A stretch of DNA of 64,000 nucleotides from contig OX485807.1 of the NCBI GenBank assembly GCA_950295325.1, positions 36,176,440 to 36,240,439 on the forward strand, given 5' to 3'. Each line of letters starts with the position of its first letter. The first letter of the stretch is position 1. Under the pieces are notes generated by a model. It saw nothing but the letters and a program-made list of their open reading frames with translations. It had not been told where the DNA came from and ran no database searches. The DNA is from Polytrichum commune (Eukaryota > Streptophyta > Polytrichopsida > Polytrichales > Polytrichaceae). This document shows, piece after piece, positions 4,683 through 37,857 of this stretch. A program made the translations under genes and the position numbers.

Positions 4683-5631
4683 CAGTGTGTATGTTTGACA
4701 AATTTCATGTGACGTTCAACCTCAAATCCAAAGTGTCACGTGACGTTTTCAAAAACAAAAATGAATGTCAATTGACATCTACATTTTATTCCAAAATGTC
4801 ACCTCAATTTTTGGCTTACACAATATTTTGGAAAACTAATATTTTGAATAATAAAAAACAAACTTGATTTGTAACAAAAAAAAATTATCAATCGAGTGTA
4901 AGTATCCTTCGGTCTCGCATGTTTCTCCAAATGTTGAAGATGGTAGCCCAATCCATTGCATCCACTTCAAGCCCACAAAGAGAAACCTGCATAAGAGCAT
5001 CAAGGGTCTTCAAGTTCAACCTATTGCGCAAGTGGCTTTTGATTGCATTTTGTTTGGAAAATCCTCTCTCACAAACAACTATACTTGATGGAATGAGTAT
5101 AATTTTTTGCCAAAGTTGCATAAGTTTAGGCCAATTTGTGTGCCATTCCAAATTGCTACCACATATGCGCCAAGCCTCAAATATCGTTTTGTTCTCACAC
5201 TCATGTTGAAGTGTTTCCGTAAATTCCAAGAGTTCTCCCTTACACATGTCACTCTCTTCTTCAGTGTATTGAAACATTTGCCTCGCCATGTTCCTAGTTA
5301 GTCTCGCTCTCCGATCATTGTCTTAGCTCCCGGTTACAAAGGAAATTGCAAGAGCAAAGTTGAACTTAAGTATGTGAGTGAGTGTAGGAAGTTCTCCTAC
5401 TGTTATGGGTTATGTTTTCCGGATACTTGAGCTGCACTTTATAGTACTCAAGTAATACGTGTCATTTCAATTTCTAGTGTGTCAATTGACGTGTGGTTTT
5501 CTTCTTCACAAGTCACAATACGTGTCAATTTCTAGATTGTGCGTGTCAATTGATGTGCATTTTTTTTTTGTGCAAGTTTTTGCGTGTCAAAAGAGGAAAA
5601 CTTGCAAAAACTTTGTCAAACATATACACTG
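4683..5631 (-). mobile_element. Non-autonomous hAT element 1 (949 bp) with intact TIRs and TSD
   Basis: The element is flanked by a perfect 8-bp duplication GTTTAGAC at 4675-4682 and 5632-5639. Its left end starts CAGTGTGTATGTTTGACAAA and its right end is the inverse, CAGTGTATATGTTTGACAAA. A minus-strand open frame at 4888-5289 encodes the tail of an hAT transposase, with CERGFSKQNAIKSHLRNRL and TLDALMQVSLCGLE typical of the C-terminal dimerisation region. The N-terminal and catalytic parts are missing, so it is an internally deleted copy. Perfect TSDs suggest fairly recent insertion. It shares both ends and the interior with the element at 13243-15357. Confidence 0.92.
4888..5289 (-). pseudogene. 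hAT transposase C-terminal fragment
   Basis: This is a 133-codon minus-strand frame inside hAT element 1. It carries the hAT C-terminal signature around CERGFSKQNAIKSHLRNRL. A full hAT transposase is some 600-800 residues, so this is a remnant without the BED zinc finger or the DDE residues. The first methionine is arbitrary. The homologous stretch in the longer element (13430-13770) has several stops. Confidence 0.8.
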
Positions 5632-26539: not shown

Positions 26540-26890
26540 GCTGTTAAGGTATCAGGGTTTAGGGTTTGGCGGATATGAATTCTCAGGAGTGCCACAACCA
26601 TAGGTTCCAAGCGTGGTCGAGAGAGGAGACCAATTTTTTTCTTTAATCTTCGGCCTATCTTGCTCCTTGCGCTCCACACATCACGATGCATTTGGACCGG
26701 CGCTCGAGCAGATTGCCTTTGTTGTTGCTGCTACTCGAATTAGCTTTTTGCACTGTAACATCACGTGACGGGACGAGGACGGCTTCCAAGTTGTCTTCCT
26801 GGCGCAACTTGGCGGCCTGATCCCGTACGTTTTGGAACTTCACCACAACCGGGTGAAGAGGCATTTCATTCATGCTTGATCCCAGTGGAG
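26540..26890 (-). pseudogene. Decayed partial duplicate of the kinase last exon
   Basis: On the minus strand this matches the C-terminal part of the kinase exon at 27011-27706: VVVKFQNVRDQAAKLRQEDN parallels VVVDFQNIRDWAAKLQEEGD, and the following Asp-Pro-Ser-Leu-Asp-Val and Ser/Asn-rich loop parallel each other. The 3' flank is duplicated too (TTCCAAGCGTGGTCGAGAGA against GTCCAAGCATGATCAAGAGA). The catalytic half is absent and frameshifts occur after the Ser-rich loop. It is a local tandem duplication that decayed. Confidence 0.85.
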
Positions 26891-27010: not shown

Positions 27011-30000
27011 TTAAGGTTCGGTGGCGTCTTCGGGTATGGAGGATTCTCGCGAGCGTCGCAGCCAGAGGGTCCAAGCATGATCAAGAGAGGAGGCCACTTC
27101 TTTCATCTTCGGTCTATCCTGCTTCTTGCGCTCCACGCATCGCAACGCCATTCGGACCACCTCGAGCAGGTCACCTTTGTCGCCTGTGTTGGTGCCACTC
27201 AAACTGTGCGCGTCTTGCACTGCAGCAGTTACATCAAGTGACGGGTCGAGGACGGCTTCCAGGTCGCCCTCCTCCTGCAGCTTTGCAGCCCAATCCCGGA
27301 TGTTTTGGAAGTCCACCACGACCGGCCGGCCGCTCATGAGCTCCAGCAGCACAATGCCGAAGCTGTACACATCACTCGCGAACGTGACCTGGCCGCTGGA
27401 GACGAACTCGGGGTCCAAGTACCCGAACGTCCCGCCCATGCGGCTCGCCATCAAGTAGGACGACGCGTTCTTCGACTCGTCCCGGTTCCACAGCGAGAGC
27501 CCAAAGTCCGAGACGTGGGACTCCATGTCCGCATCGAGTAGAATGTTGGCAGGCTTCACGTCGCCGTGGTAGATCTTGGGCACCGCGTACTCGTGCAGAT
27601 ATTCGAGCCCCTTGGCCGCGCCCATGGCGATCTTCAGCCTCGCCTCCCACCCCAGGAGGCGCTTCGAGCTCGAAGGGGTGTCAGGGCCGCTCTGGGAAGG
27701 CAAATCCTGTATTTTGTAGGGAGCAAGCAAGCAAGGGGCGTCATCAAAATAGTCTAAGGCTCAAGCAATCTCGTCATTATTATCAACTCAGAAACAAAAC
27801 ATGAAAATTATTATCACGAGGTGACCCGAATGAAATGAGTGGAGTGTTTCCTAAGGTATATAACAAGGGTTGTCATTCAGTGCTTCAGTCTTTGTTTTGT
27901 GGGACTCAATACTTGTTGATGAGAGAGAGAAAAGAGAGATGACTCCGATGTTGCCAAACCAGCGTGAAATTGGTGTTGCTTCATCTAGAATTACGTCTAC
28001 ATGTGATTCCAAAATGAACATCACGAGAATTGGGGATATCCAACAAACATCGAAGCTCCACACGGCAGCTATTAAGAGTGGAATCTCCACTAGAATAGAA
28101 ATAGGGCATAAACCTTGTGTTGAATTATGTTATGAGTTATTAAATAAGGTTCATGAAATCCCTTGTTTTATCCTACGACCCATGCAAAATAGGGTTTCTG
28201 CTAATTCATCTAAAAAATCCATTGCCCCGCGGCGAATGTCGAGGTCAACCATGTGATATATCATCGAATTCGTTATTTCGTGGGTGCAACGAATTCATTC
28301 ATTCATTCAAAGAATACACTGTATGAAAGAAAACCAAACCATCATAAAAGATCAGAAAAGGAAAAGTGAGTTCCTACCTCCCCAGTGAGGGTAGGGCTGC
28401 TGCCGTGCAACCAATCCGCGAGCGTCCCGTTTTCCATGAACTCGTACACGAGGATGATCTCGTCCTTGCAGTAGCCCAACAACCGCACCAGACGCTTGTG
28501 GTTGAGTTTGGAGAGAAGCTCGAGCTCCGTTGCAAATGTATCCCACACCTGGCCGCCTTCGCAGGTGTCCGCGAGGTCCCCCCGAGTCGGCTTCTTGATG
28601 GCCGCCACCGTCCCGTCCGCAAAGGTGCCTTTGTAAACCAAGCCGTGTGCACCCCGGCCAAGCTCCGCCGAGGTGCTCCAATTGTCCGTTGCGGCGGAGA
28701 GCTCCTCTTGCGAGTATTCAATCAACGCCCGGCTTGCCTGGCTGCCCCATCCACCGGAGTTGGCTCGCAGAGACCGCCCTCGGCTCTTCATTCCCCTGCT
28801 TGATTAATCACACCACCCACATTCATCGTTACATGAGCAAGCCTTGCGTACCTTTAAAGAACGCACAGTCTCAATATACAGTCAACTACACAATTTGTAC
28901 AAGCCTCACCAAGCTCATCAGTCATTTTACATGTTTATATATGGATTTGAAACCTTATTTCATACATTGTCTTATGTCAAGGAGAAGAAATATATCTCTG
29001 TATATATACACCCGTACGTGACATTGATGTTCAAGATACAACGTGTGTATTTGCATCGAAGGGCCCTCAAGCTGCAGATTGAACTCAAATCTTCCATAAC
29101 ATCAAGGTTATCAACCATGTCAAAAAGTGTACTCGAAAAATAAGTTGATTATGGAATCGATCACTTTTGACATGATTGATTGAAAATGCAAGCATGTAGC
29201 TCACACACAAGTTTTTGTGCATGGAGAGGTCCAGTCAGGGCCTCTCGGATGCTTAAAGGGTTGACAACATTGTTCGTTGGATCGAGGAAGTTGCAGTAGC
29301 TCAACAAACCATGGCGTTATCGCAACGAGGTACTAGAGCCAAAGGCAAAGGGAACGCATGTCCATTACCAGATGTAGTGGTTAGGGTATGGCAAGGTCGT
29401 CAATTAAGATAAACGGGTCTTAAACGGGACACATTTAGCTTTGCACCTTCTGTTAGGATATGAAACATGCAATTAGTGCAAGATGATCAACAAATTGAAA
29501 TCGTGTCCGTAGCCACTTTCATCACTAATTTAGTCAATATTCTCTTTCTCATCAATTGATCATATAGGTCCCCCCCAAATCACATTGACCATTAAGCTTA
29601 GAATGGTAAACAAATTTTGCATGCGTGTTTTAAACACTATTCTTTTTTATATTCGTTCTCAAATCCACACATAACCACATACCGCTCAAATAAATATAGG
29701 TGTCCAATTAAGATGAGTATTTGGATTAGGTCGCTTCCCTTACGTAGGGTGATTATGCCCCCTCGTATCCAATCAAGAATAAGGTAGATGGGTCTTGACT
29801 TAAGTGGCTCGTTTTCTTGATCAAACCCCAAGATTTGATTGGTGTGTGGTTCAGTGAGGATCAAAGAACAAACATCATAAAGCCATGTGTTTAAAAGAGA
29901 TTGGACTATGTCTTCAAATATTACTAACTACTCAATAGTGAGCACAATTGGGAAGACCTATGTATCCAATTAAGAAATCAACAAACGCGCACTTCCGATA

Positions 30001-33000
30001 GCCCATAACTACATGAGGAGAGGTCTGATTTTCAATCCGGTTTTTGCAGACGTTTCATCGTAGATTTGCTAATGCAACACGAGTTTTGTTGTCTAAATCT
30101 AATCGGTAGAAGTTGGAAAACACGAGGACTTTTTTTTCAAAAAAATAAAAAATAAAAAAATCCCATACCCTAGACGTGTCTAACAAAATCGCTCGACCTA
30201 ACCACTACAAAGAGGAAGAATTGGAAGTACTGGAGCTTACGTGGGTGAAGAAGGGAACGATCCGGATCTGAACTTCCCGGGAGACTCGGAGGAGGAGGGA
30301 GTCGTCCGGTGTGATTTGTTCGATGCTTCCGCTTTCCCAGGTAGCAGATGGTTATATCTCCTTCCGAAACACCCGAACCAGAGCAGGGCGAGGAGCAAAA
30401 TCAGGGCCAGAGCCACTCCAACTCCAATCCCGCTAATCTTTGTGGCACTCAGAGAGGAACTGGCTCGACTGAGCGCCGACGCTAAGCAAACACCGGGGCA
30501 ATTGCAGACTCGCTGCGTGAAGCTCAGGCCACTCGTGTCGTTCGTTAAGCACAAGGGATTCTTCGGGGCTGCCACGTTGAAGCATTCGTTGGCTGATGAA
30601 TAGCTCATCTGCCAGACGCCCAGAAATTATATGAAACACCACCAACACCATCAGTTTTCGTGCCATACAGCCGTAGCATTCACCCTTCAGCGTCTACGAC
30701 GAGGCCCAGATTGGGCCTCTCCATCCATGAAAACATGTATTTCGAGCTGCATTTTTCTTCTTTCATGTTTAAGCCAATTATGTCGAAAGTGATCCTACCT
30801 AAATTTCACTCATTCCTCAGATGCACTGTTTGAATCAGTTGAACACCTTGATGTTAGTGTAGATTCAAAGTCAAATCCGGAGCCTGAGTGACCTTATATG
30901 CAACTACAGACATTTTATTTTGATTATCAATGTCAATATGAGTAGATTTTCCTTTTCTCCCTGACATAAGGCAGCGTATACAGTAGAACAAGGTTGCGGA
31001 CCCATGAATATATAAAATCTGATTTATGAACTTATCCTTCATAAACACCTTGGTTTTAAAATAAAAAAATCTAGACTACCATATCAAGATATCTAATCGG
31101 TACCAAATCGGGAAGAGTTTAGTGGTTATGGAAACAATCTCCATAACCCCTGTATCGCCAAGATTGTGCTTTATAATCTCCCCCAGATGGCGAAGGAAGA
31201 AGATCTATGAGGTTTATACGAGTGATGTAACTGAAGGGATGCCGCCAACACCGGGCCAACACCACTCTAAAATGAGATGAAGACTTTCCCAACATCTACA
31301 ACCACAACATAAGGTAATGAAGCTTCAAAAGATCACAGGTTCAATAGTGACACCTACTTTGGGTCTCTAACCTAAAGCTAGCTAGCCTGTTCACCATCTA
31401 CCTCCAACCTACTTGACACTATGTGAGTGGTTGGAGTGCAAGGGAGCATGCACACATGATCGATGTATTAAACCCCTCCCCCCCCCCCCAAAATGATATG
31501 GAATCTTGATTTCATGCTTAACTCGATTCGTTCTCTCACAAGTTGTGTAAGATAACCGACACGTGTCTCCCAACTATAGAGTTATAGGCATGCCCACTCG
31601 CCACTCCCGTGGCTTGTGAAGGCAAACCCATATTTGAGCTCCTCGTGCTGAGTTAGTTCTCATACTCAATTTTGACATGCCCATAACCAAATTGTCGGAG
31701 ATCTCATCGCATGGCCACTACCTCAAGTGACACGAACTAGGGTTCAGGGTTCGTACAAAACAATGAACCGGGAGAACCGACCGCTAGTTACAGATGAACC
31801 CGGTTGAGTTTGAGAAATAACCGGTTGAAGTTCGAAACTTCAGGAAAATTACCGATCACTTTTGAGGAATCTATGGAAAATACACCTCAAATCAATGAAG
31901 AAAAACCGAAAGATCACAACATGTAACCGGTTAGACTTGGAAACACTAGGATCTTGATCGATTATGCCCAAAAATTACTCCGGACACTGGTGCAAAATAC
32001 TTACGTTGCAAGGAAGGCGGGGGGGCACGAGGCCGGTGAGCGAGTCAGTGTTTGAATGCGACAACAAAGCCGTCGAGAAGTCGGATTGGACGATCGATCC
32101 CAACTCCTCGATGAGGACGTCGATGCCCGCGACACCGATGAGCGTGTAATTATCGGCGAAGGCCGGGTACACCACGGTGATCACTTTCCCGAGGCTTCCG
32201 TTGTCTTGGTAAGGGGCCGTCCACGCCGGAGTGTTGTTCACGGCCGTGAGCCGGATTCTCGCGAGCACGCCGAAGTAGGACCGAAGCGTCCATAGAGGAT
32301 TCGCCACCGTCTTGCTGATCTTTTCGTAGGTCCCGTAGCAATCGCAGGCGAGCTGCGACAAGGGATTCGACCCCGAACTGAGCCTGTCGAAACTGTAGAT
32401 TTGTACGAGAACGTTGAGGTTTCGGATGCTGTCAAACACGGTAGTCGTCGTGCCATTCGCAGAAACCCCGGAACTCACAGCGTCGATTTGCCCATCTGTG
32501 AATGTCAAAATCACCTGGAAGAATTCACACCCGTGAAGTGTAAGAATGTTAAATCAATCCTCACATGATCCAAGTTGGGTTCGTTTTTCATGTTCTCCAA
32601 CTTCTACCTATTTTATTTACACAATGGAACTTGTGTCGCATTATCACATCTACGATGAAGTATCAGCAAAAGTCGGGGAGTGATTATCGGACCTCCCATG
32701 ATTTAGTTGAGGTTATCCGAAGTGCGTGTTTGTTGATTCCTTGAACTGAACTCCCAATTGTATTCACTACTGAGTGTGGAGTGGTTTATAAAATTTGAAG
32801 ACGCAGTCCAAATCTCTTTTAAACATCATGTGTCTTTATGGTGTTTGTTCTTGGATCCACACCAAACCACACACCAATCAAATATAGGGGTCCGATTAAG
32901 AAAACCAACTGAATAACACCCGCACACCTTACTGCCCAGCAGACTATAGAAAAATATATATTAAGTTTTGAAATTTGAGCGACTCCAATGATGGTAAGGT

Positions 33001-36000
33001 AGGTGAGTTTTTGAGATTGGTTTGTGACAAATGTGCCGGAAATTAATATTATTTCAGAAAGATTTCAGATTTCAGAACAGATTATTGGCAATTTTATAAG
33101 AACATATCAAGGACATCTTTGCAACAGAATTTGGTTGCCATTAGAAAATAGCAAGAAGAAAATGGCCATTTGAGAGACACATTGAAAAATCCCAAAAGCT
33201 CTGCAAAATTGTGCATATTCAGACTTGCATCATTGGTATATTGAGAGTTGTAGTCGAAGAAGTTGAGGGTTCAGCTCTTAGCATTAATTCAACCTTTACA
33301 TTTGGTATCATCTATCAGCATTCTCAAGAATCTTCTGTAAAATGGCTCTAATTCACTCGGGAACGTACACAACTACCCAACAATTTTCCTTACGTCCAGT
33401 CTTCCAGGCATAGCTTGAGACTCAGTTTAGCTGGCTTCACGATTTTGTAAATGTAGGTGAGAGCATGAATCATACCTTGAGTGCAATGGAGTTTTGATAG
33501 ATTTGATTTGCCGCAACAAAGCCTGCTGTCAGATTGGAAGCCCCTTGGGTACTATCAGCTACAAGAGGTTGTAAGGCATTTTTCAAATCTTGGAGATTTG
33601 TTGCATTAACTGTCATCTGCAAAGTTAAAAACATGCCACTGTCAAGAGACACGCTTCATCCAAATGATGGAAAACCAGAAAAGTCTGTAAGGGGTGAATC
33701 TCCACATCTGAATGCAATAGATCATAAGTTTGATCAATGCATTTAAGGTAGATGGGTCTTAAATGGTTACAGTATCTGACTAAGACACTTCTCCTAGGAC
33801 AAGACATACGTGATTAGTACGATATGATTAGCAAATCCACATGAAAGCCATAGCCACTTTCCTCATGCTTTTTGAAGCTCATATGAATATCCATTTATGA
33901 TGATGAGGATTCTTGTGCTCGTTACGTGGTCATGTAGGTCCCTCCAATTATGTTGATTACTGAGCTTACAAGGGTACCATAGTTTGAGCACATGGTCCAA
34001 TCTCTATGAAACACGTGTCTTTTGATATCAGTTCTTGAAGCCACACCAAACCACATGCCACTCAAATATAGGTATCTTATAAAGGAAAGCAACCAATTAA
34101 GGGATGTATACCTTAATGACCACAAACTTGGGGCCACAAAATCCGTATTGTGTGAACATGATGCACAAACTATATAAAGCTAGCCCTATTCCCTTTGGGG
34201 CTTAGGGTGAGTTTCCATGTAGGCCACTTGCCCACTATAGTGTAGATGATTGTGGGTTGGAGGTGTTCACATGGAGTTAAGCACAAGCCGCCATCCGACC
34301 ACATTCTCACGGTCCATTAGAATGTAGAGGGCCATGGACACATGCCGCTAGACATCAATGCGCACACTACAAAAACTTTAACCTACAAGTGTCGGTCACC
34401 AAAGGATTAAGACCGGTTGAAGACTCAAGAGAACTCCATCCTTGGTAATTGGGAGGAGGAGGTTAGTAGGTGAGTCCGGATTTGAGAAGATGGGAGTAGC
34501 TAGTTGCCACATACAAACCTTACCCCACCAAATTCCTCTACAGTTGGGCAGGTCGGTCCTTATTCACACTAGAATGTGGTGGACGAGCAACCTACACGAA
34601 AACTCACCCTTAAACTTCCTAAGAGAAAACAAGAGGCACGAGATAGCTAGGGGATAGCTACACTAAACATTCGATTTAGTCTAGCATTCACATTGGTGGC
34701 CATGTTAATTAAAGTGATCTTCATGACTTGTCACATACCACCCAAGTGTCATATGACAGCCTCTCTACTTGCAATCCAATGATTGCACAACAATTAGTGT
34801 GGGTCGATGATGAATAGTGTGGGCCACGCCAATCACATGTTTAGTATAGCTACAAAGGTGAGAGGAGGGGAACAAGGAGGCTCTCTCTTGACACAAGGTT
34901 GGGAGGTAAACGTACACGTTCTTACCACACACTTGCATTGGAACTGCCAGTTATGCTAAAAAAACAAGTACCTACAAACCAAGATGGTAGAAGTGAGCTT
35001 AAATGGTGCAAGCTTGACAATATTTATTTGATTTGATTACTCACAGGCGAGAGAACAGGTGATGCAACAGCCGAGCTCGTGAACGTAACGATTGTGATGC
35101 GGTCACCAATGGCCAGCGTGTCTAAGAATGAGGTTAGCATTGACACTAAGGCTTGAATCTTTGTTGTGCTGGTAGTAACTAGCAGGTCACCAGGAAGGCT
35201 GTCTCCCATTGAATTTCCTGCGTCAAGCAGCACAACCACATCCTTCTTCACCGCTGTCACTCCCATGTACCTGTCAAGCGTGTATAGAAAGTTCAATTTC
35301 TGAGAAAATTCTTACCCCTCAAAAGAAACATACATGGCCTCGTGACATTGTTAAGATCTGCATATCCTAACCCTTTTGCCTAAACGGGCAGCCTAGGCAA
35401 GCTGACATATTTAGGATCAGGAAACACTCGCGTAAGCAAGATACAGCCTTAATGCTTATGGAATTGGCCCATTACTATTCTTGCCAGAGTGAATTTTGAT
35501 TCCTCATCTACGGCAGTCCCATAAGAAGCTTGACAATGTTACACATGCTACCTACATTGACAGAATGTGAGATCCTCATTCTGCAAACTCTTTGGAATTT
35601 ACCTAATTCTTGTACTATCCAGATTCTTAGAAGTGTACATAATTGCCGAGTTGAAATAGAGAGGGATTTATGTGTTAAAATTGTTGAATCAGCATGTTCA
35701 TAAATGGAGTTACAGTTGAGAAGTTATTTACCATGGCCGTTTTCTTGGTTCAAAGGTGCAATTGTTTGCTGCTACATCCTGCAATGACATGAAAGAGTGA
35801 TTTCATTTTTCTCCTCTAGCAACTCTCATTTTGTAAAGATGATGAGGACATATTGAAGGGCATTCTAACTAGATTACTCAGCTCAGAAGTTGATGCTGGA
35901 AAGCATCCTTCCACAAATTCAAAACGACACGGAGTAAGTGCCAATGCTAATAAGCTATGGTTAATTCCTGACTATTATCTGTGGTTTTAATGAGTAAAGC

Positions 36001-37857
36001 TCGGCACAGGCAGATCGCATACAATAAATTAGTTTCACACATGCTTCAAATTGTATCCTATATATGTGGAATTCTCACCCGTCCCGGAAAAGCTCGATGT
36101 ACTCCTTCCACAGACGCAAAATAAGTCCATGAAGTCAGATTCAAAGCACTGTTGTGGGAACTCGAGATGTTCATGAAGATTGGATCCAGCATTCGCTGTG
36201 AGCATATCGTAGCATTCGCTTCATCTGTTAAAGTAACATTGGAGCCTGTTGGAAGCCTGTAAGTTAACCACCATCAACTTTAAGTATCAATATTACAATT
36301 GACCTTTTCGCTTTTCCCACGTTTCTCAAACCGGGCAACTGCAATTAGGAAACTAATTAAGAAGAAATGCTTGAGTAACACGAACTTGGAGGAGCTGGAT
36401 GCAATGAGTAACTCGAAAATATTCATTGCTTTCAACACTGCGATTGGTTTCAAGCACCAAACTGTTTGGCAAGGTTTGCTTAATTATGCAAGAATTGACC
36501 AAGCCAAAGCGTTGAAGTATGATGAATCCGTCTTCAGCTATGAGGAAATTCTTGACCACTTCGACATGTGTTGGGGAGCTAATCTAACAACTTAATCCAC
36601 ATCCACTCCAACCCCAAGATTAATTCTTGCAATATGAAGTTGCCCAATGATTTTGGGCTAGTTGCTCATGCTTACGAGTCTTGTTACCTTTCTTAAGGTT
36701 GTTTGAATCCACCGCAAGTGCCTAAGCTAGCTGTGCCTCTCTCTTTCCCAGTCCTAGTGGCTTTGTAATTTTTGGTGAGTGGATTAAAGCGTTTCACTAG
36801 TCTCCAAAAACAAACAAACAAACAAAGTAAATAATAAATGATAAATAATAATAACAAAAGAAAACAAATATTGAGATTGGTTTGTATATGTTTCAATATT
36901 AAAAGGTTTACCTGACAAAGCTTTTGGTTAAAGAGACTCGCAGTTGCGAACATCCCTGGGCTCCATTTACACTATAGCAATTGGGGTTGAGGGCCACATC
37001 CTTGCAAGTATAGCCAGCTTCATCACCTTGTAATGGTACACAAGCCTGCCGAGAACAATTTCCTTCACATGAAGCCACCAACGCTGCCAGCAGAGAAATT
37101 GATTCAATATTAAATAGATACTGAAACAATTTCAACCAGGTCTGTGCAAGGGGAGAACACAAAGAATTCTCCAATTACAAAGGCTGCTAATTCATTCCTG
37201 ATCACAGACATCCAGGACAACAATGCCACTGGACTCTATACACCTTGGACTGTAGAAGTGAACTTGTCCATTACAACCGTCTGTTGCAGCTCGCCTATTC
37301 CAACTCTTCGAGAGAATGTATAAATAAATAAATTTGGTTGCCCAGTGGAGGTTTTTGGCTGCGGTTTTTTACACTTGGCCGCAACTGAATTGATCATTTA
37401 TACAATTTTTGTAGGCAGGAGCTGCCATTGACGGTTGAAATGGACAAGATTTCTTCAAGCGATGAGAGGATAGGCTCCATCCAGTCCCATGAGTCTCTAA
37501 TGTTTCAGTGTCATACCAAGCCTTTGAACAACAAGCCTGAGATTTGCATATAGAATTAAAAGCATGAAATTAAGGTGTTTGAACCTGTAGCCTTGGGGGT
37601 TCTTGATATGTGCATTGTATTGACAAATTAAATCTGACATGGTCAAAGTCAGAGTTTCTCATACCACAAGAATTCATGAAATTGAGCACAGCAGCCTGCG
37701 CAATCTCCATAACCTCTTTCTCCACCTTGTTGATGTAATCCACAGCATCCAACCCACTTTGTGCATGGCAAAGACTAATTATTGCAGCCAAAACAATAAT
37801 AATCTTCACTGGGTCAGACGGTCTCCCCATTTCGTCTTGAATTACATTCGTCTTCAA
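27011..37857 (-). CDS. Receptor-like kinase with VWA_N-VWA-Cache ectodomain (alpha2/delta-like) and CR4/CCR-like kinase
   Basis: Exons: 37665-37857, 36912-37083, 36079-36256, 35732-35778, 35045-35270, 33476-33616, 32005-32514, 30241-30608, 28378-28795, 27011-27706. All junctions are GT-AG and in phase; total 2949 nt, 982 residues. Signal peptide 1-32 (IIIVLAAIISLCHA). VWA_N-type segment about 166-197: WTYFASVEGVHRAFPG then FEPRKRPWYMG. VWA about 204-355, with DAGNSMG at 213 (MIDAS motif with Gly for the first Ser) and VILTFTDG at 320. Cache-like region about 375-475: WTLRSYFGVLARIR, LGKVITVVYPAF, LIGVAGIDVLIEEL. A Cys-rich stalk, then a transmembrane helix about 546-570. Kinase from 657: GRGAHGLVYKG, K679, HGDVKPANILL (HRD is HGD, so non-RD), DFG 818, GTFGYLDPEF, DVYSFGIVLLELMSG. 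The kinase resembles CRINKLY4/CCR proteins. Likely a plasma-membrane receptor; the ligand is unknown. By analogy with Cache and VWA domains it could bind small molecules or metal-dependent partners, but that is inference. Confidence 0.9.
29455..30115. repeat. Long imperfect fold-back repeat (family copies in opposite orientation), in kinase intron 8
   Basis: The left arm (29455-29705) has AACCACATACCGCTCAAATA. The right arm (about 29830-30110) contains the inverse of GTCCAATCTCTTTTAAACAC and GTTTGTTCTTTGATCCTCAC and ends in ATCGGTAGAAGTTGG. The two arms are family members facing each other. It lies between exons 9 and 8 of the kinase gene. Confidence 0.6.
32590..32925. repeat. Dispersed repeat family, copy in kinase intron 6
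   Basis: Starts near CTCCAACTTCTACC, continues ATCTACGATGAAGTATCAGC and GACCTCCCATGATTTAGTTG, and ends with the core ACCACACACCAATCAAATAT. It corresponds in inverse orientation to about 29705-30110 and 55190-55850. Confidence 0.65.
33770..34110. repeat. Dispersed repeat family, copy in kinase intron 5
   Basis: Contains ATATGATTAGCAAATCC, GTGGTCATGTAGGTCCCTCC, ATGGTCCAATCTC and ACCACATGCCACTCAAATAT. The same order is seen at 19285-19720 and, in part, at 29455-29705 and 57835-57880. Confidence 0.65.
34655..34852. mobile_element. MITE-like repeat (AGCTACACTAAACAT ends) in kinase intron 5
   Basis: The left end AGCTACACTAAACATTCGAT is mirrored by the right end, the inverse of AGCTATACTAAACATGTGAT. 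The internal block around AATGATTGCACAACAATTAG and GGGTCGATGATGAATAG matches 20813-20984 and 58637-58830. Confidence 0.7.
36299..36595 (+). other. Unclassified 98-codon open frame antisense within kinase intron 2
   Basis: The frame reads ATAIRKLIKKKCLSNTNLEE, then a Gly-Phe-Lys-His-Gln segment, then ESVFSYEEILDHFDMCWGAN. The mix of charged, amphipathic and aromatic residues looks protein-like. No family is recognised and no splice partners or promoter were found. It could be a captured gene fragment, a transposon remnant or chance. Confidence 0.3.

Follow-up and report, generated by a model that had tools for sequence, protein, structure and literature searches.

A receptor-like kinase of Polytrichum commune with a VWA-interrupted Cache ectodomain related to alpha2/delta: a putative amino-acid receptor family

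The alpha2/delta proteins carry two dCache domains and a glycosylphosphatidylinositol (GPI) anchor, and alpha2/delta-1 and -2 have an intact metal ion-dependent adhesion site (MIDAS) (PMC9901441; statements on this source and on PMC7615972, PMC10104139 and PMC9603095 refer to the available excerpts). The amino-acid-binding motif consists of YxxxRxWY in the first part of the Cache domain and Y...D in the second, its Arg being the third of the triple Arg required for gabapentin binding (PMC9901441). CACHD1 is without a kinase and combines two dCache domains with a Frizzled-interaction domain (PMC7615972). Among plant receptor-like kinases (RLK) a class named 'Cache-RLK' has been tabulated with 32 sequences from 80 Phytozome species (Table 1 of PMC9603095). 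Here we present a minus-strand gene at positions 37830-27011 of a 64,000-nucleotide stretch of Polytrichum commune DNA (assembly GCA_950295325.1, contig OX485807.1, positions 36,176,440 to 36,240,439), hereafter the window, together with a description of its relatives in the same genome.

We regard the product as a receptor kinase for a small ligand, probably an amino acid, and put the probability of this reading, which is drawn from sequence, at roughly 0.6. The initial annotation of the window had suggested a small-ligand sensor, and the retention of the amino-acid Cache motif makes this plausible. From the N-terminus the protein consists of signal peptide, Cys-rich N region, Cache N-half, VWA, Cache C-half, six-Cys juxtamembrane region, transmembrane segment (TM) and kinase, and it resembles plant RLK/Pelle receptors in having a signal peptide, an ectodomain, a single TM and an RLK kinase. 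By inspection, residues 1-23 resemble a signal peptide. Seven cysteines lie within residues 55-100, the six juxtamembrane cysteines occupy residues 479-521, and the 14 highest hydropathy windows all fall within residues 533-564, indicating a single TM. The kinase matches Pkinase (PF00069) at 9.1e-35 and PK_Tyr_Ser-Thr at 7.3e-35, as expected of an RLK/Pelle kinase, and the earlier identification of a receptor kinase is thereby upheld.

In single-sequence searches alpha2/delta-1 matched residues 136-449 (E 5.7e-11) and CACHD1 residues 121-445 (E 2.5e-7), each in one stretch, and on these matches the order VWA_N, VWA and Cache is homologous to that of both proteins, as had been claimed. A profile of seven family members found alpha2/delta-1 at E 5e-25 and the chemoreceptor PctA at E 0.0011. 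The likeness to alpha2/delta-1 comprises the Cache N-half, a VWA inserted after RPWY, a linker with AC--G-Y and Y--VL-R, and a Cache C-half with WT--Y-D and GV-G-DV; the likeness to CACHD1 consists of a VWA within a Cache domain, plus a TM. The plant receptor differs from alpha2/delta in its one recognisable Cache (PDC1), in the sequence D-x-G-x-S, and in having a TM and a kinase. About 95 residues separate the Asp of GVAGID from the TM, the kinase follows, and neither a second dCache domain nor a GPI-anchored C-terminus was found in this part. The proposed alpha2/delta-like ectodomain therefore stands for the first Cache domain (PDC1) and the VWA, but not beyond them: the alpha2/delta-1 alignment ends at residue 449, and the second Cache half was undetected.

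The relation to bacterial Cache domains is clearest once the VWA is taken out. Ten bacterial loci among the matches listed were fetched with patterns from the family alignment that include the RPWY peptide; a likeness at RPWY is thus built in, whereas continuation past the junction is not. With residues 196-401 (VWA) removed, all ten bacterial open reading frames (ORFs) aligned in a main alignment crossing the junction, with whole-sequence E-values of 2.8e-12 to 2.0e-7 for the window core and 6.8e-16 to 5.4e-9 for the profile. These values were computed for 210 sequences, and none of the 200 shuffled controls was reported at E 10. With the VWA retained, whole-sequence E-values were 5.4e-8 to 3.7e-5 and the match lay mostly near RPWY, with a second weak match after the VWA in five of the ten. 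When the cut points were moved over a grid with 10-residue spacing, the mean score peaked at 195|402 with 32.4 bits, against 28.8 bits for a shifted cut of equal length (205|412) and 8.3 to 23.1 bits at the four orthogonal neighbours. After excision the MCP-like_PDC_1 model (cut-off 27 bits), scored on three of the seven family members, was passed by the window protein (27.3) and C3 (31.4) and missed by 0.9 bit by C2 (26.1). The dCache_1 model covered the excised core over model positions 93-159 of 240 only (17.7 bits, cut-off 45).

Eight of the ten bacterial ORFs (all but L025 and L027) were scanned for domains. Four pass dCache_1, L022 passes MCP-like_PDC_1, L023 and L028 match dCache_1 below cut-off, and in L021 none of the Cache models reaches E 1e-5. 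No VWA was found in the eight. Bacterial dCache sensors of the PctA type (L020 and others) share W-Y--S--GVH--FPG...YDPR-RPWY...Y-D...GVAG-D with the plant core in one alignment without VWA; they differ in that RPWY continues straight into the remaining Cache in all ten ORFs. Their outputs, in the eight scanned, are MCP, SpoIIE, HD, GGDEF/EAL, or a Ser/Thr kinase placed N-terminal to the Cache (L020). In L020:264-2708 a Ser/Thr kinase (Pkinase 6.9e-37) and then a dCache (dCache_1 5e-12) lie in one ORF, the same two functions in reversed order.

To judge from these alignments, the ectodomain is an amino-acid-type Cache domain with an inserted VWA. Chance resemblance was rejected on the alpha2/delta-1, CACHD1 and profile E-values, the excision test and the cut grid. 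The insertion point, shortly past RPWY and ahead of WT--Y-D, is the same in the alpha2/delta-1 alignment, and because of this match one shared insertion is likelier than two. The VWA insertion would then be older than the plant-animal split, with transfer between lineages as the alternative. Neither VWA_N, sought in 297 genomes of a single bacterial phylum, nor the VWA-Cache stretch, sought in six bacterial genomes, gave a match; these empty results are no proof that bacteria lack VWA-in-Cache proteins. In a six-frame search of the P. commune genome VWA_N gave a single match (E 0.024), below cut-off and outside the window, so this model is blind to the receptor family in such a search. Dynein heavy chain gave 13 matches and dirigent 41 in the same genome, as would fit a land plant with flagellate sperm.

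The genome contains at least six further near-complete copies and one partial copy; the searches report best candidates only, so that the family may be larger. Paralogue models were made with a home-made protein-to-DNA aligner, which reproduced the hand-made window model exactly. Ectodomain identity to the window copy is 71% (C3), 53% (C7), 47% (C4) and 33% (C6a, C2 and C6b alike). C3, C7 and C4 have the same kinase type as the window (type A), with 53-79% identity among these four, whereas C6a and C2 have a different RLK kinase downstream (type B); the type-B kinases are 73% identical to each other and 32-37% to type A. Residue strings below follow the order window, C3, C7, C4, C6a, C2, C6b.

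The motif residues of the window protein are F181, R186, W188, Y189, Y412 and D442, and an aromatic residue stands five residues before the Arg both here and in alpha2/delta-1. The R, W and Y of the first part are kept in all seven copies, the second Tyr (YYYFYYY) and the final Asp (DDDQDDD) in six each. With Phe allowed at position one, the full motif is present in the window copy and in five of the six others. C4, the copy without the second Tyr and the final Asp, is also the one with an in-frame stop, a single one in its Cache C-half.

Gene structure, homology, domain order, motif conservation, the family and its second kinase type can be read from the DNA, whereas ligand, conformational change, kinase activity and biological role are inferred, the switching from ligand to kinase being modelled on bacterial Cache receptors and RLKs. 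The membrane-distal Cache, interrupted by a VWA as in alpha2/delta, would bind a free amino acid or an amino-acid-like metabolite. The Arg would hold the ligand carboxylate and the Asp the amino group, with the aromatic residues surrounding the ligand. Binding would alter the Cache/VWA and the Cys-rich stalk, change the pairing of the receptor with itself or a partner, and so switch on the cytoplasmic kinase.

Several observations weigh against this reading. With the whole window protein, Pfam scores stayed below the curated cut-offs for VWA (19.7 against 23.8 bits), MCP-like_PDC_1 (19.8 against 27 bits) and VWA_N (PF08399; 12.4 against 34.7 bits). The Pfam matches expected by the initial annotation were thus obtained, but weakly; the best family members reached 1.5e-11 for VWA_2, 8.2e-11 for VWA, 1.5e-5 for MCP-like_PDC_1 and 0.0014 for VWA_N. 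CACHD1 is missing from the family-profile list, which extends to E 1, and a Pfam search of the excised window, C3 and C2 proteins did not detect the other half of a bacterial dCache. By approximate counting, the site of a small Ala of alpha2/delta-1 is occupied in the seven copies by H, H, E, Q, W, W and W, so that the pocket may differ. The first motif position reads FFFFYYY, with Phe in four of seven copies including the window against the published Tyr, and the Asp beside the second Tyr reads DDDADDS, with Ala in C4 and Ser in C6b, at a site outside the motif as given in PMC9901441. The Ala of alpha2/delta-1 makes room for bulky gabapentinoids (PMC9901441); the differing residues at this gate position may therefore mean different ligands among the copies, without gabapentin binding.

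The likeness to alpha2/delta drawn at the outset does not extend to the MIDAS. Its first D and the TDG Asp are present in all seven copies and its fifth-position S in five, but the third position is G in all seven, giving D-x-G where alpha2/delta has the intact D-x-S-x-S. A protein-binding or adhesion receptor, in which the VWA, or else the Cache surface, binds a protein or a wall component while the Cache pocket serves merely as scaffold, is unlikely, though the most serious of the alternatives. It would suit the seven copies with both Asp residues and the five with the Ser, and CACHD1 does work via protein contacts, its Cache surface with Wnt receptors (PMC7615972). The invariant Gly and the loss of the fifth Ser in the two type-B copies argue against it, as does the small-ligand motif, which is kept in both kinase types.

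A small-molecule receptor for a ligand other than an amino acid (amine, purine or organic acid) is improbable. Amine receptors arose from amino-acid receptors among bacterial dCache proteins (PMC10104139), and such ligand switches would agree with the H/E/Q/W variation at the gate position; however, the carboxylate-bonding Arg, unconserved in amine receptors (PMC10104139), is kept in all seven copies.

The gene comprises 10 exons and 9 introns, all GT-AG, in one 973-codon frame with a single terminal stop. Position 37830 holds the first in-frame ATG, and 37857 is an in-frame TTG upstream of it. The single-gene, ten-exon model of the initial annotation holds in its one frame and in an order repeated in the copies, but its length is corrected from 982 to 973 and its start from 37857 to 37830. 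A purpose-written spliced-alignment program given the protein returned the ten exons exactly, which checks consistency, not truth. The features are as follows.

37665..37830, minus strand: exon 1, ATG, signal peptide and start of the N region, residues 1-56 (spliced model; signal peptide by inspection)
36912..37083, minus strand: exon 2, Cys-rich N region (six Cys invariant across seven aligned copies)
36079..36256, minus strand: exon 3, Cache N-half with the W-YF-S--GV-R-FPGR segment (spliced model, alpha2/delta-1 and bacterial alignments)
35732..35778, minus strand: exon 4, FEPRKRPW, where the amino-acid-binding motif begins, its W codon being cut by the following intron (spliced model, copy alignment)
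35045..35270, minus strand: exon 5, Tyr of RPWY and VWA start with D-x-G-x-S (spliced model, Pfam, copy alignment)
33476..33616, minus strand: exon 6, VWA middle (spliced model, Pfam)
32005..32514, minus strand: exon 7, VWA end (TFTDG), linker, Cache C-half with WTAPYQD and GVAGID (alignments)
30241..30608, minus strand: exon 8, Cys-rich juxtamembrane region, TM (about 538-560) and start of the cytoplasmic linker (spliced model, hydropathy)
28378..28795, minus strand: exon 9, linker and kinase N-lobe (spliced model, Pfam, solved-kinase search)
27707..28377, minus strand: intron 9, not present in C3, C7 or C4, containing a dispersed repeat about 110 bp long (copy comparison, genome search)
27011..27706, minus strand: exon 10, kinase C-lobe (HGDVKPAN, DFG), C-terminus and stop (spliced model, Pfam, copies)

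The join of exons 9 and 10 is the least certain, intron 9 being unique among the four copies with a type-A kinase, and about 18 residues flanking it have no counterpart in C3. Since the other three type-A copies lack it, intron 9 may be an intron gain. Its repeat, at about 27921-28031 (about 110 bp), has at least 42 further genome matches.

Ectodomain introns 56/1, 113/2, 172/0 and 188/2 are common to the six kinase-bearing copies including the window, and C6b shares the last three. Over the whole gene, C3 has eight of nine introns in common with the window copy, and the phase-2 intron between TM and kinase is kept within one aligned residue. The proportions of nonsynonymous and synonymous differences between window and C3 (pN/pS) are 0.181/0.722 for the ectodomain, 0.144/0.729 for the kinase and 0.432/0.646 for TM and linker, ratios that are rough because silent sites are near saturation. 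Ectodomain and kinase both appear clearly under constraint on these figures. Two neighbouring genes wrongly joined, or a dead copy whose kinase is broken by the repeat-bearing intron 9, would fit the intron found in the window copy only and its uncertain join, but are very improbable, since C3, C7 and C4 repeat both order and frame and purifying selection acts on both halves. The two-gene reading in particular was rejected, since three other copies have the same order and C3 keeps the phase-2 TM-kinase intron.

Land plants are not known to have CaV channels, which counts against a channel accessory protein like alpha2/delta with an incidental kinase. Shared ectodomain ancestry with alpha2/delta speaks for such a protein, but a TM and a kinase replace the GPI-anchored C-terminus and the MIDAS is imperfect, yet alpha2/delta-1 needs its MIDAS to enhance channel currents (PMC9901441), so that this explanation is hardly credible.

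Among solved kinases the window kinase is close to BAK1 (2e-46, 162 bits), with FERONIA also among the best; CR4/CCR kinases, the type suggested by the initial annotation, are not among the solved structures shown in this search. The catalytic Lys, Glu and Asp and the DFG are present on inspection, and HGD stands in place of HRD, which makes this a non-RD kinase. With the HRD Arg replaced by Gly, activation need not depend on phosphorylation of the activation loop. Against BAK1 the C2 kinase reaches 247 bits, against the four type-A kinases 118-150 bits; the C2 and window kinases are each nearer to BAK1 than to one another, which points to two RLK lineages rather than one diverged kinase.

The first models of C6a and C2, built with the window query, had one and two stops, respectively, between ectodomain and kinase; stop-free models were obtained with a C2 query stitched without the ectodomain-to-kinase stretch. 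From order and spacing, C2 and C6a are each likely to be one gene with the second kinase type. In C6a the TM is indistinct and the kinase end lies outside the model. C6b has a TM, its model begins after the first exon, and tblastn with the window protein found no kinase within about 10 kb downstream. At L014/L016 (C6:22.62-22.64 Mb) an ectodomain is accompanied by a TM and, as modelled, by a short tail rich in proline; no kinase was found there, and this may be a receptor-like-protein form of the family. An extra partial type-B ectodomain copy at C4:46722248-46723062 gave two matches, one with internal stops, and is excluded from all counts.

The tabulated 'Cache-RLK' class shares its name and general architecture with the present family (PMC9603095) and, to judge by these, is likely to be identical to it. 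No named plant family had been recognized in the initial annotation; the entry 'Cache-RLK 32' of 2022 (PMC9603095) probably supplies one, and the class was thus already counted, if not described, being only tabulated, with no occurrence of VWA in the available text. The terms VWA, von Willebrand and Cache do not occur in the main text of a 350-genome RLK survey limited to named ectodomains (PMC10834447) or of an RLK review (PMC10868138).

More tentatively, at somewhat less than even odds, these proteins may represent land-plant amino-acid-sensing receptor kinases in which a universal Cache sensor, with an alpha2/delta-type VWA insertion predating the plant-animal split, became joined to at least two RLK lineages, and in which gate residues set differing ligands. 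A small receptor-kinase family in a seed-free land plant suggests a new route for sensing extracellular small molecules. It also suggests kinship between the animal gabapentin-receptor fold and a signalling receptor of plants, and an ancient origin of the VWA insertion.

Three further minus-strand features were noted in the window. Just downstream of the gene, at 26580-26864, lies a degenerate partial copy of the kinase C-terminus (47% identity, 8.8e-13) with three in-frame stops. An ORF at 2277-2720 has the start of a LytB domain (2.5e-11) and is probably a single exon belonging to a gene of plastid isoprenoid synthesis (IspH). Positions 4891-5322 encode a hAT transposase dimerisation region (2.6e-6).

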